Made by a program: the position numbers and the translations under genes. This document shows, one piece after another, positions 49,030 to 53,340 of a stretch of DNA of 64,000 nucleotides (position 1 is its first letter; each line of letters opens with the position of its first letter). This DNA is from Argentina anserina (Eukaryota; Streptophyta; Magnoliopsida; Rosales; Rosaceae), in contig NC_065872.1 in the NCBI RefSeq assembly GCF_933775445.1, forward strand, positions 12,834,001 to 12,898,000. The letters are read 5' to 3'. Under the pieces are notes generated by a model. It worked only from the letters and a program-made list of their open reading frames with translations. It searched no databases and was not told where the DNA came from.

Positions 49030-49384
49030 ATAATGACATAGAGCGGGATGATATACCAGTATGACTGAATTTCTATGGTTTTGAGTTAGTCTAGAACCCA
49101 TTAGGTTAAATGCTGTGCCATGATAGTCTTGGTTATTTTCTTGCAATCATCGTTACTTAAAATCGGCAACAATATCAAGACTCAAATAATTGACTTTGTT
49201 ATTGGAGTAATCTAGTGGTATAACTGACAAACGATGGATCGTAAATAGTTGAAGTAACTAGCATAGAAAAAAGAATGAGAGAAAAGAGAATAGGGAGCCG
49301 CTAACACTATTGAAGATGATAAATAAGTAATAAGTAATTTAACTAGCAGATTGAGAATGAGAGAAAAGACCCTTTGTGCTTAAA
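49030..49384. other. 3' flank of CID copy 2; nothing further recognised
   Basis: The sequence to about 49130 is similar to the 3' flank of copy 1; beyond that nothing is recognised. Confidence 0.4.
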
Positions 49385-49889
49385 AAAAAAAGGGGCAAAT
49401 TATAAAAAAAGTAACATCTCTTAACTTATATTAGAAAAAAGTCACAACTTATGAATTAATTATTAAAAAGTCATCATATTTAAGTAGAAATTATAAAAAT
49501 GTTAAATTAATTAGAAAAAAGTCACTTTAAAAATATTTTATAGACTATTTTGCCATTTCTTATTATTTTTCTTCTTTTTTTTCTTTTTTTTCTAATTTCG
49601 TCTATAACTTTCTCGTCCGGCGATAGATTTTAACAAAATTGGTACCGTTAGAAAGATCTCGCTCCCCTTTTTCATTTGATATACTACCCACTCTAAATCG
49701 ATCAACCTTACAAGGCGCAACAACCATCACAAAGGGTTGCCGCCATCAATGGCGGTGCTTCAAGCAATTCCGGCGAAACCGAAGCTCAAGGTTCTCTAAT
49801 TCCTGCTATTCTCTTCATTTGGAGCATACTTATACCAATCTCATTTGAATTTTAACAAAATTTCACATATTTCCGCATTTCCTCTCGGC

Positions 49890-50620
49890 ATGTCACAGCT
49901 CTTCTCACAGATGCTGTCACAGACGCTGTCACACCTACTATCACACCTACTGTCACAACCGCTATCACATTATCTATTTACACCCAGTGTCACAACCTCT
50001 GTCACACTACTTGTCACAACCACTATCACACTACCTATTACACTAACTGTCACACCTCCTATCACACCCACTGTCACAGACGTTGTCACAGACGCTCTCA
50101 CAACTGCTGTCACATTATCTCGGCATGTCACAGCTCCTGTCACAAACGCTGTCACAACTACTGTCACAACCGCTATCACACTATCTATTTACACTCATTG
50201 TCACAACCTCTGTCACACTACCTGTCACAACCACTATCACACTACCTATTACACTAACTGTCACACCTCCTGTCACACCTCCTATCACACCCACTGTCAC
50301 AAAACCTGTCACACTATCTATTTACACTAACGGTCACACCCACTGTCATACCTACTGTCACAATCACTGTCACACACATTGCTCTCTCCAATCGACTCCG
50401 GCTGCTCTCTCCAAGAATCTCGAGGACCTCGTCCTCCGATGTTGAGCGCTTCCAACATGTATCAAATGTGATGTCACACTCCCAACTACACTACCTATCA
50501 CACTAATTATATGTCTGTCACACGGCCTATCACACTACCTATCACACAAATATTGGTTTGTGACAGGTGGTGTGACAGGTAGTGTGATAGGTGGTGTGAC
50601 TCTCATTGTGAAAATCGATG
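49890..50620. repeat. 12-bp tandem array, unit ctgtcacaNNNN
   Basis: Dozens of units of mostly 12 bp with the fixed core TGTCACA and a variable four-base spacer (acca, actac-type, ccca). Two stretches (49970-50080 and 50175-50300) are themselves near-duplicates, so higher-order duplication has occurred. From about 50560 the core appears inverted (tgtgaca, tgtgata). Because 12 is a multiple of three, every frame stays open and yields artefactual repeats such as VTTPVTPT or LSHPLSQP. Confidence 0.93.
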
Positions 50621-51165
50621 TGACTGCTATGTTGAATTTTTGTCAGTTTCTTTACATATGGCTATGGAGAGACGCTATTTTCGGAGCTTCGTGGAGAACA
50701 GAAGGGATGAAGTCAGATTTTGTACGCCAAAAGGCACGGACATGTGGATCCAAAGCCGTCGACGACGGTCTCCGCCTCTCCAAACGCCTATCCTTCGGGA
50801 AGGATCGAGTCGCCGTGTCGCCGCCGAAGCCGCAGCCGCTCATGGACAAGTCCGTCGTCGTGGCCACCGGCTTCGCCTACCTCCCGACGTCGCCGATGGT
50901 CTACGCCGTCATATCCGACCCGACAATCGTCGACAACCCGGATATCCCGAGCTACCAGCCCCACGTCCACGGCCGCTGCGACCCGCCGGCGCTCATTCCT
51001 CTTCCGATGAACAAGGTTGACCTGGAGGTCGACTGCCACCAGGACACCGCCTTTATTCGGGTCACCGGGTCGTGGCGGGTCCACTGCGTCAAAAGCTCCA
51101 GGAGCTGCGGCTGCCGCATTGCGATTCCGATGTTGATGAATAAGGAGGAGACGGTAGCGGATTAA
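50560..51165 (+). CDS. Chimeric frame: array-derived N-terminus fused to an inter-alpha-trypsin-inhibitor heavy-chain-like fragment (201 aa)
   Basis: The open frame begins in inverted array units (MTGGVTGSVIGGVTLIVKID). From about residue 64 it becomes host-like: AVDDGLRLSKRLSFGKDRVA, FAYLPTSPMVYAVISDP, DNPDIPSYQPHVHGRCDPPA and DLEVDCHQDTAFIRVTGSWR, then CGCRIAIPM. I recognise this as the N-terminal part of plant inter-alpha-trypsin-inhibitor heavy-chain-like proteins (VIT/VWA family); the rest of that large protein is absent. The segment is far richer in GC than its surroundings and has no stops over about 410 bp. Expression and function are unknown; it may be only a captured fragment. Confidence 0.6.
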   Translation: MTGGVTGSVIGGVTLIVKIDVTAMLNFCQFLYIWLWRDAIFGASWRTEGMKSDFVRQKARTCGSKAVDDGLRLSKRLSFGKDRVAVSPPKPQPLMDKSVVVATGFAYLPTSPMVYAVISDPTIVDNPDIPSYQPHVHGRCDPPALIPLPMNKVDLEVDCHQDTAFIRVTGSWRVHCVKSSRSCGCRIAIPMLMNKEETVAD

Positions 51166-51310
51166 AACTAGTGGCAAGTCTGTAAATATAATTAACTCTG
51201 AGGGCAACGGTTTAAGAGATTTGAAAGATTGACTTTTTTATAATTTGTAAATTGCCGGTGACTTTTTTATGATTACATCACTCAAATGTGACTTTTTTGT
51301 GAAAACCAAA

Positions 51311-53340
51311 AAAAAAAAAGTTATCCGAGTAGGAAGGTTCGTTCTTCTGTGCCGATCTGTTAGTGCAATGCAAGCGATACAACTTCGGCAATTGCTTGGC
51401 TCCAGCGTCAAACTCCTCTTCACCTAAAGGCTCGTTGCGAAACCTCTATACACTTCTACCTCGCATTCCAGGTTTGATTTCCTGGTACTAATTTATAATA
51501 AACCATCTATCATGAGACCATTGTTTATCTTGAAGAGAGTAGTAGCTATAATGTTAGGGAGGGCACTAGCAAGCCCCGTAAGCCGATTGTGATTAACAAA
51601 GCTCATCTCCAGCAAAAGGAAAACATCAACTTGCTTTGATTAGTATTATGTATGCACCATGAACTCTTGTCCTATTATAAAAAAAGCTTATGACAGGATA
51701 TGTAATGATCATCTTATCTTATAATGTGTTTTTTTATGGCAAATATACTATGTTTTATAAAATTTATGTGACCCGATTAGCTATTACTCTGTTGTGATAA
51801 AGCACGGACAAGAGGTCATGAGTAAAAACTCAAAACTAGCATGCAGTATATAACTATTCTTTAAAATGAAGCTCAATTATTCAGAACTCTTGCCTATTCT
51901 ACGACTTAATCGAGCATAGTAAAAGGCAACCAACTCTCTAAACTTTCTCTTCACCCTTCACACAAGGGCATGGATCAAGATCTTTAGCTTGGAGACTTGA
52001 ATCATCTCTGATCTCAACTTCCATTACCAGCGGAATCCCCTGCAAAAAAACCCAAAAATACAACCAATTTATTGGAATGGATATTGGAGAATTCAAAATT
52101 CTCAAAAGACAGTGTTTCGATCCTTTGCAAGATTGAAACTAAAGACATAGTGCGACGGGCCTTGGGGCTGAACACTAGAGTTGCGGCGAAGCTTCCAAAT
52201 CCAATGAAACTTACCTTGTAGATCCTTGATCTTCACCGACTTAGTGGTGAGGGTTTTGGCCAAGAGGAAGGGATTTATTTAGAGCAATAGATTATCTAAA
52301 AGATCCATGAACGATACATCAATTACGCCGCCACTAGCAAGTGCCCCAGATTGGACAAAACTAGCTGTTACCACCTCAAGGCTCGGCAAGACGATCAATG
52401 GAGGGGAATGGTGTTTGTGAAGAGGGAAGAGATGTTTGTGAGAGAGCATAATAGTATAACTAGCCACTAGGTTGAATAGAGCTAGGGTTTGCAAAACCCT
52501 AACATGGGAAGCGGCTACTAGGGTTTGCATAATAGTATTCATGTGCGTGTGTTTGAATGAATAAATAAATTCTTTTTTAAAAAAGAATGAGAGTGAAAAA
52601 AAAACGAGATTTATTATATTACTAAAACATTACAAACAGAGGCCAAAAGACTTGAAACTATAAAAGACCGCTACCATACCAACGTTGGGAGGCTCTTGAC
52701 TAAAGAATTAACTTAGCTGCTTTATGAGTAACTAAAATTGGACTCTCGGAACACATGACTAAACAATGAAGTAGAACTTTGATATTTTGTAAAATAAGTT
52801 TTGATTTAAAAACTAAAAAAAAAAAATTCGATAACACAAATACTCGAGTGACAACCTTAATATCTCGGGTAACCTCATCCTCTTACTTTATGCAAGATTA
52901 TCTTAATTGTATCATATATTTTATTTGTTACTATGATATGTTATGACACCTACGCTAATGTAAAGACCTAAAACTAATTCGTGATGAATTTATACCCGGC
53001 CAAAATGTTACATTTTGCGACTTTAAATATAACTTGTTGAAGAACTTAGCTCAATGTGAAAACGTTGACATACTCAATGGGTCTAATCCTAATTAGTACA
53101 GAACACGGGACATATATATTTCACAACATCTTGGAACTCATGATCATGAAAAACCAAAATTGAGGGTAAGAAAGAAAATAAAAACTGGAGATCTATTTCT
53201 GGCCATCCTTGTACTAAGTTTAATTTGAGACCGGACATCCAAACTCGGTTGTGTTTTTCTCTTTAACCGTTTTGCGCCAAATGGCCCCTACTTAACTCAC
53301 AGCTCAAAAACCTCTTCTCTCTCTGTCTCTCTCTTCACAA
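51311..53340. other. Unassigned spacer between element A and CID copy 3
   Basis: No gene or repeat could be supported. At 51368 a short frame (MQAIQLRQLLGSSVKLLFT) followed by a splice-donor-like ccag|gtttga at 51470 might be a stray first exon, but nothing follows it. Confidence 0.35.

Follow-up and report, generated by a model that had tools for sequence, protein, structure and literature searches.

Probable exchange of older cargo for a host exon in a Mutator-like element family of Argentina anserina

The element and its GC-rich segment

The window (the whole stretch of 64,000 nucleotides that was analysed, C1:12834001-12898000) comes from the genome of the plant Argentina anserina, which spans 236.8 Mb in 146 contigs. 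At positions 49392-51307 it contains a 1.9-kb repeat element with A-runs on both sides. It begins with a conserved left part, which is followed by a 12-bp repeat array with 38 forward motifs, inverted array units, a GC-rich segment and the right end (Table 1). The inverted repeats I1-I10 are 72-86% complementary, so that inverted units can pair with forward units. No MULE-domain match was found inside the element. The 9 As on the left are compatible with a target-site duplication and uninformative alone; because the flanks of this copy are A-runs, its own duplication proves nothing.

Table 1. Features of the window element (positions in the window) and of the DUF1685 cargo copies (contig coordinates).
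Feature	Position	Strand	Basis
A-run left of the element	49382..49391	.	sequence; family-wide 9-bp target-site duplication test
Conserved left end, begins GGGGCAAATTATAAAA	49392..49890	+	at least 40 genome copies at least 88% identical
Array of 12-bp units, core TGTCACA/TATCACA, interrupted at ~50376-50470	49891..50547	+	TRF
Inverted array units, TGTGACA	50558..50624	-	inverted repeats I1-I10
Chimeric open frame	50560..51165	+	open from GTG and from ATG; no sign of selection
Older cargo, surviving left part	50640..50752	+	common to three sister elements
Left junction microhomology, TCCA	50749..50752	+	donor gene and sisters alike
Captured piece of exon 1, donor codon 6 to ~134	50749..51132	+	donor alignment
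Right junction microhomology, ATTCC/TTCC	51124..51128	+	donor compared with sisters S1/S2
Right remainder of older cargo and element right end, ends ...GTGACTTTTTTGTGAAAACC	51129..51307	+	sister alignment
A-run right of the element	51308..51319	.	sequence
DUF1685 cargo copies	C4:23102391-23105904 (positions 305-800), C4:12592598-12593111, C6:18524101-18524850

The first-pass annotation read the GC-rich segment as a piece of a host gene acquired by Pack-type capture. The search for a donor bears this out: a separate multi-exon gene lies on C1, with a copy on C3. In BLAST, window positions 50749-51132 match the C1 locus (C1:4097408-4097794, minus strand, 8.8 Mb from the element) with 97% identity, and the alignment contains eight substitutions among 384 aligned bases (98%) and one 3-bp gap. 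The C1 gene opens with an ATG and continues, past a splice site inferred after GAACAG, into downstream exons, one of which includes a VWA domain; the captured match is to exon 1, beginning 15 bases past the start of the ATG and stopping 9 bp short of the inferred exon end. The captured segment matches 138 database proteins at E≤1e-3, among which no inter-alpha-trypsin-inhibitor name is listed, and the chimeric frame has no match to Pfam families up to E=1. The donor is a gene that we take to be inter-alpha-trypsin-inhibitor heavy-chain-like.

A genome search with residues 64-191 of the frame finds one locus with 97% identity and a second whose match is split into two pieces of 95 and 97%. The second donor copy (C3:806975-807365) is 99.5% identical to the first in exon 1, where it carries a frameshift, and differs from the captured piece by nine substitutions in 383 bases. 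The two copies probably represent a recent duplication with one damaged member, the C3 copy, and the donor could be the C1 gene, the C3 copy or their ancestor. The DNA upstream of the two genes is similar as well (C1:4094001-4100500 compared with C3:804001-810000). A 53% identical paralogue is located on C6.

In a comparison of 6.5 kb around the donor with the window, exon 1 alone matches near the element, and no further donor exon was found in the window. The other matches of the donor region are repeat-like upstream stretches at 39.4-39.8 kb and 44.6-44.9 kb. No other element with the exon turned up in the genome searches, so that a single exon-carrying copy was found in the assembly.

The fused frame comprises 201 codons from a GTG, 239 from stop to stop and 178 from the first ATG (50629). 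It is continuous with the inverted part of the array; the first-pass annotation noted that it runs out of the TGTCACA array and considered a chimeric protein possible. The open frame is real; as an argument for a protein it carries little weight, given that ~82% of copies with eight random substitutions would stay open. That the donor frame is kept, and that the single 3-bp gap is in-frame, would suit a working chimeric gene under selection. The eight substitutions relative to the donor, however, are divided between four synonymous (one of them the junction base) and four non-synonymous, and the first ATG lies within element sequence upstream of the captured piece. A working gene is therefore extremely improbable, and a functional chimeric protein was rejected, there being no sign of selection and an open frame being expected by chance. 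The fused frame is best regarded as a probable by-product without demonstrated function.

Sister elements and the displaced cargo

Two other copies in the window lack the GC-rich segment, as originally reported. They are nevertheless poor comparators because they carry a different cargo and together resemble one composite element. This putative composite (60491-64147, with the last 147 bases beyond the window) would have an internal tandem duplication; it lies between GTCTATATT and TTCTATATT, which are identical at 8 of 9 positions. The comparators used instead are three sister elements elsewhere in the genome (C1:21083826-21085719, C6:27772022-27773896 and C4:4917189-4919069).

The sisters share with the window element the left part, the array and the sequence that follows as far as 50752, and again everything between 51125 and the right end; the identity over 180 bp of the right remainder is 94-95%. 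Between these flanks, they hold 298, 299 and 298 bp of other sequence instead of the exon. Both flanks and the displaced sequence are thus observed directly, and since the flanks are shared while the sequence between them differs, the exon replaced part of an older cargo. Capture, as first proposed, stands, but the exon was not simply added: 298 bp of the older cargo gave way, and this sequence is still present in the three sisters. A 395-bp query made of sister cargo and left flank yielded four genome matches from four candidates, namely the three sisters at full length and the window element over the first 97 bases. As unswapped relatives survive, the states before and after the exchange can be compared letter by letter.

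The junction matches can be read off the same alignments. On the left, TCCA (4 bp) is common to the donor and the sisters. On the right, the donor shares ATTCC (5 bp) with S1 and TTCC (4 bp) with S2; in S3, one base differs at the junction, which reduces the match to 0, so that the right match is limited to S1 and S2. Among 200,000 random pairings of slot and donor, a shared run of at least 4 bp was found in 1.6% and of at least 5 bp in 0.5%, in a model that takes the two junctions, a small sample, as independent.

The explanation that we consider probable is that the window element is a non-autonomous Mutator-like Pack-MULE that gained the exon by template-switching gap repair. A break or gap would have opened in an already existing sister-type element, within its cargo slot between the 12-bp array and the right end. 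Repair synthesis would then have jumped to exon 1 of the unlinked host gene at the 4-bp match TCCA, copied ~380 bp of the exon and returned at the 4-5-bp match (A)TTCC, for a net exchange of 298 bp of old cargo lost against ~372 bp of exon gained. The template switching would be the work of a polymerase, and a transposase supplied in trans would move the element.

Host DNA can also come to lie between element ends when two neighbouring insertions fuse; here, two family elements would have flanked the donor exon and moved as one. This is the published Pack-TYPE model (Pack-CACTA and others), for which the excerpts of the sources give examples in several superfamilies (PMC8903248; PMC13317346). 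For the window element such a history is very unlikely: both exon flanks are cargo common to the three sisters, a specific internal 298 bp is missing and the donor is 8.8 Mb distant. At present, there is no family end or array in 6.5 kb around the C1 donor (C1:4094001-4100500) or in 6 kb around the C3 copy (C3:804001-810000), although a departed element would be invisible. The internal replacement, the unlinked donor (directly identified as one of two copies), the short junction matches and the lack of a family end on the donor side together fit gap repair and do not fit the fusion of neighbours.

The order of events is indicated by divergence. Relative to the sisters, the left flank of the window element has diverged by 9-11% and the right flank by 5-6%, and the divergence between captured piece and donor is 2.1%. 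Since 2.1% is less than 5-11%, the capture appears to be younger than the split from the sisters. Under the opposite polarity, the exon-carrying element would be the older form and the sisters would have replaced the exon, or both cargos would have been acquired independently. With one exon-carrying copy in the assembly, polarity has to be judged from indirect evidence, and this evidence makes either of these histories very unlikely: the captured piece is 98% identical to the donor, the flanks are 5-11% away from the sisters and the other cargo is common to three sisters at three sites. An open frame that crosses the left breakpoint in the sisters points the same way, weakly, in that a second frame crosses it too.

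The sister cargo itself was considered as a piece of a known gene, and this was rejected. A DNA search of the genome returned the elements alone, a protein search of the genome gave four matches, again the elements, and Pfam gave no hit. No homologues were found in the protein collection with a 62-residue query compared with proteins of similar length, a comparison in which a full-length relative would be missed.

The element family and the contents of its slot

A first look for the left end across the genome gave 568 candidates, and the best 40, which were scored, are all at least 88% identical over about 490-516 bp. A 24-mer from the commoner form of the right end occurs 122 times in the genome when up to three mismatches are allowed, compared with 1 occurrence for the reversed control. 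Within the DNA examined, 29 of 46 left ends are followed by a right end within 3 kb and 17 have none in that DNA. The left 500 bp are common to all 29 two-ended members. The 12-bp array, initially reported from the window alone and real by TRF, is present in 28 of them, including the window element, and the remaining one retains a single unit; among 729 successive forward spacings in the 29 elements, 550 are exactly 12 bp. The right end is common to 28 of the 29, that of C4:20948112 being shared with at most three others. Searches of openly licensed papers brought up no description of this family and nothing that contradicts the initial remark that the array architecture is undescribed.

The flanking 9-mers agree with at most one mismatch in 15 of the 29 members, compared with 14 of 812 swapped pairs, with the peak at exactly 9 bp. 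Averaged over the members, flank identity reaches 0.74 at 9 bp and lies at 0.46-0.58 for every other length between 6 and 12, compared with 0.38-0.44 for swapped pairs. These values refer to redefined boundaries: the first rule, under which 8 of 27 members and 12 of 702 swapped pairs agreed at 9 bp, without a clear peak there because 10 bp scored equally, was changed since it set many right ends one base short. The common left terminus GGGCAAATTATAAAAAAGT matches the common reversed right terminus GGGCTTCTTATAAAAAAGT at 16 of 19 bases. Of the 29 copies, 17 begin with GGG and 18 end with CCC. These inverted ends are short and imperfect, and further decayed in the window copy. The 9-bp duplications, which are directly observed across the family, and the short ends beginning with GGG indicate the Mutator superfamily.

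Of 270 candidate MULE-domain places in the genome, 150 were scored. When 148 of these were compared with 100 of the 122 right ends and 40 of the 568 candidate left ends, one lay within 25 kb on the inner side of an end, and no autonomous element with the family ends was found in this comparison. The one place (C3:12834669-12847792, 13 kb from a listed right end) is a weak lead and a possible autonomous partner. VANC proteins carry DUF1985. This domain was found at three places from 13 candidates, one of them over the cut-off, and none lies, by eye, near a listed family end, the lists covering part of the ends.

Between the array and the right end, the 29 members carry at least 14 cargo groups of 0.3-0.9 kb, as read by eye from the sharing table. 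With 29 two-ended members and at least 14 cargos in the same slot, cargo swapping is more than an isolated case. Pfam was scanned with 20 reading frames from the family cargos and the sister cargo, using curated cut-offs. Three frames scored above them: an ammonium transporter (PF00909), an FGGY kinase (PF00370) and DUF1685 (PF07939). Gene pieces are present in other array elements as well. Hits below the cut-offs, to SAWADEE (tentative) and DUF5508, were not used for naming, and the other 15 frames had no hit. The gene pieces come from 5' parts in the window, transporter and kinase cargos and from a 3' part in the DUF1685 cargo.

The ammonium-transporter exon occurs in three elements, C1:4845034 (to 4845671), C2:3832543 and C4:23464007. 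In two unswapped relatives, C5:21648147 and C4:14221479, the corresponding place is occupied by other sequence of 323 and 320 bp; judging from these alignments, the transporter exon is a second cargo swap with surviving pre-swap relatives. The three copies are on three contigs, and the swapped elements have therefore moved on. At the right junction of this swap ~1 bp of match is certain, and the left junction is ambiguous. The best host match of the cargo, its likely donor, is 89-94% identical; another part of the cargo has a 97% match to a further locus.

A possible third swap is seen in C4:17371424-17374921 and C1:3163681-3166755, where 156 bp replace 60 bp of the cargo of their group. A 181-bp query covering it found five places, four at 94-100% and one weak at 72%, and no donor gene was recognised among these five.

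The FGGY-kinase cargo, presumably derived from a glycerol kinase, is a mosaic of two unlinked loci with ACAAAG in common at their junction, and contains the start of the inferred first intron of the kinase; hence, its template would have been DNA or unspliced RNA. In the cargo at C5:6842467-6842944, a glycerol-kinase-like exon and intron start from C6 are combined with a piece from C3 that may encode a SAWADEE domain. Almost nothing of the 12-bp array is left in this copy of the element, whose 9-bp target duplication is perfect.

The DUF1685 cargo has a different structure. Its donor gene (C1:8039248-8040055) contains a 294-bp intron, from GTAAGT to the last AG, that is missing in all three aligned copies; the removal is at GT...AG, with one G assignable to either side. 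Two copies extend beyond the stop codon and far into the 3' untranslated region, the third a short way (for the C6 copy, 750 bp including the right end were examined). No separate processed DUF1685 copy was found among nine matches of a genome search. Judging from these alignments, the probable source is either a spliced transcript or a retrocopy that has since disappeared, and given such precise splicing, the templates may sometimes be RNA-derived.

An RNA or cDNA template in place of genomic DNA, that is, RNA-templated gap repair, would account for the loss of the intron in all three copies, for the 3' untranslated sequence in two of them and for the lack of a separate processed copy among the nine matches. 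As an explanation of the capture it is nonetheless unlikely. The window capture lies within one exon and cannot discriminate between the templates, the kinase cargo includes the inferred intron start, and a lost retrocopy or a later gain of the intron by the gene would look identical. Gap repair by template switching, as set out for the window element, is the preferred reading. We guess that the array and the inverted units might form a break-prone site. It is conceivable, if doubtful, that the slot has been refilled repeatedly by template-switching repair from both spliced transcripts and genomic DNA, with the foldable 12-bp array as the break-prone trigger, which would make the family an exchangeable host-gene cassette.

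Comparison with known systems and implications

As described in the excerpts of PMC4858842 and PMC3310237, Pack-MULEs of rice, maize, tomato and Arabidopsis resemble the family in their Mutator-like ends, 9-bp duplications, GC-rich gene pieces, several source loci per element and lack of an internal MULE-domain match. In contrast to most Pack-MULEs, which have long inverted ends, this family has short and imperfect ones, a shared 12-bp array beside the cargo and surviving pre-capture sisters. The target-site duplications of 9-11 bp by which Pack-MULEs are recognised are present at the level of the family, the window copy being uninformative, and the cargo of the window element derives from a host gene, not a transposon, whose parental copy exists separately. 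MULEs with tandem inverted ends also have repeated motifs within a Pack-MULE; in the excerpted account, they duplicate their ends, whereas this family has a separate internal array (PMC3310237).

Animal Pack-TIRs formed by gap filling are alike in their internal breakpoints, short junction matches and unlinked donors, as far as the excerpts of PMC8277862 go. Gap filling is recognised from breakpoints with short matches and from internal sequence that has gone missing; both are found here, the loss being 298-299 bp. The case described here differs from the excerpted animal ones in that it concerns a plant Mutator-like family, an older cargo was replaced and the elements with the transporter exon have proliferated. 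Pack-TYPE elements made by neighbour fusion are alike in having host DNA between element ends, but the donor-side element that the excerpts of PMC8903248 lead one to predict is not seen, and the exon flanks are old cargo.

According to the excerpts of PMC5735166, the anti-silencing VANC proteins of Arabidopsis VANDAL elements bind short motifs in tandem repeats; the excerpted text names DUF1985 once. The family resembles VANDAL in its dense, mostly same-oriented short motifs within non-coding tandem repeats whose number varies among copies. The motifs differ, TGTCACA in this array and YAGTATTAY in VANDAL (excerpts of PMC5735166), and in the partial lists no DUF1985 match lies near the listed family ends.

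What is new here is the survival of pre-capture forms, the replacement of cargo with short junction matches, the cargo slot shared across the family and one spliced cargo. As one genome retains the element as it was before and after the capture, and the donor too, the bases that were lost, gained and shared are readable. The transporter provides a second case with pre- and post-capture forms and a likely donor, and the at least 14 cargos in the family allow a systematic test. The spliced DUF1685 cargo prompts one to ask whether RNA can serve as a template for repair.
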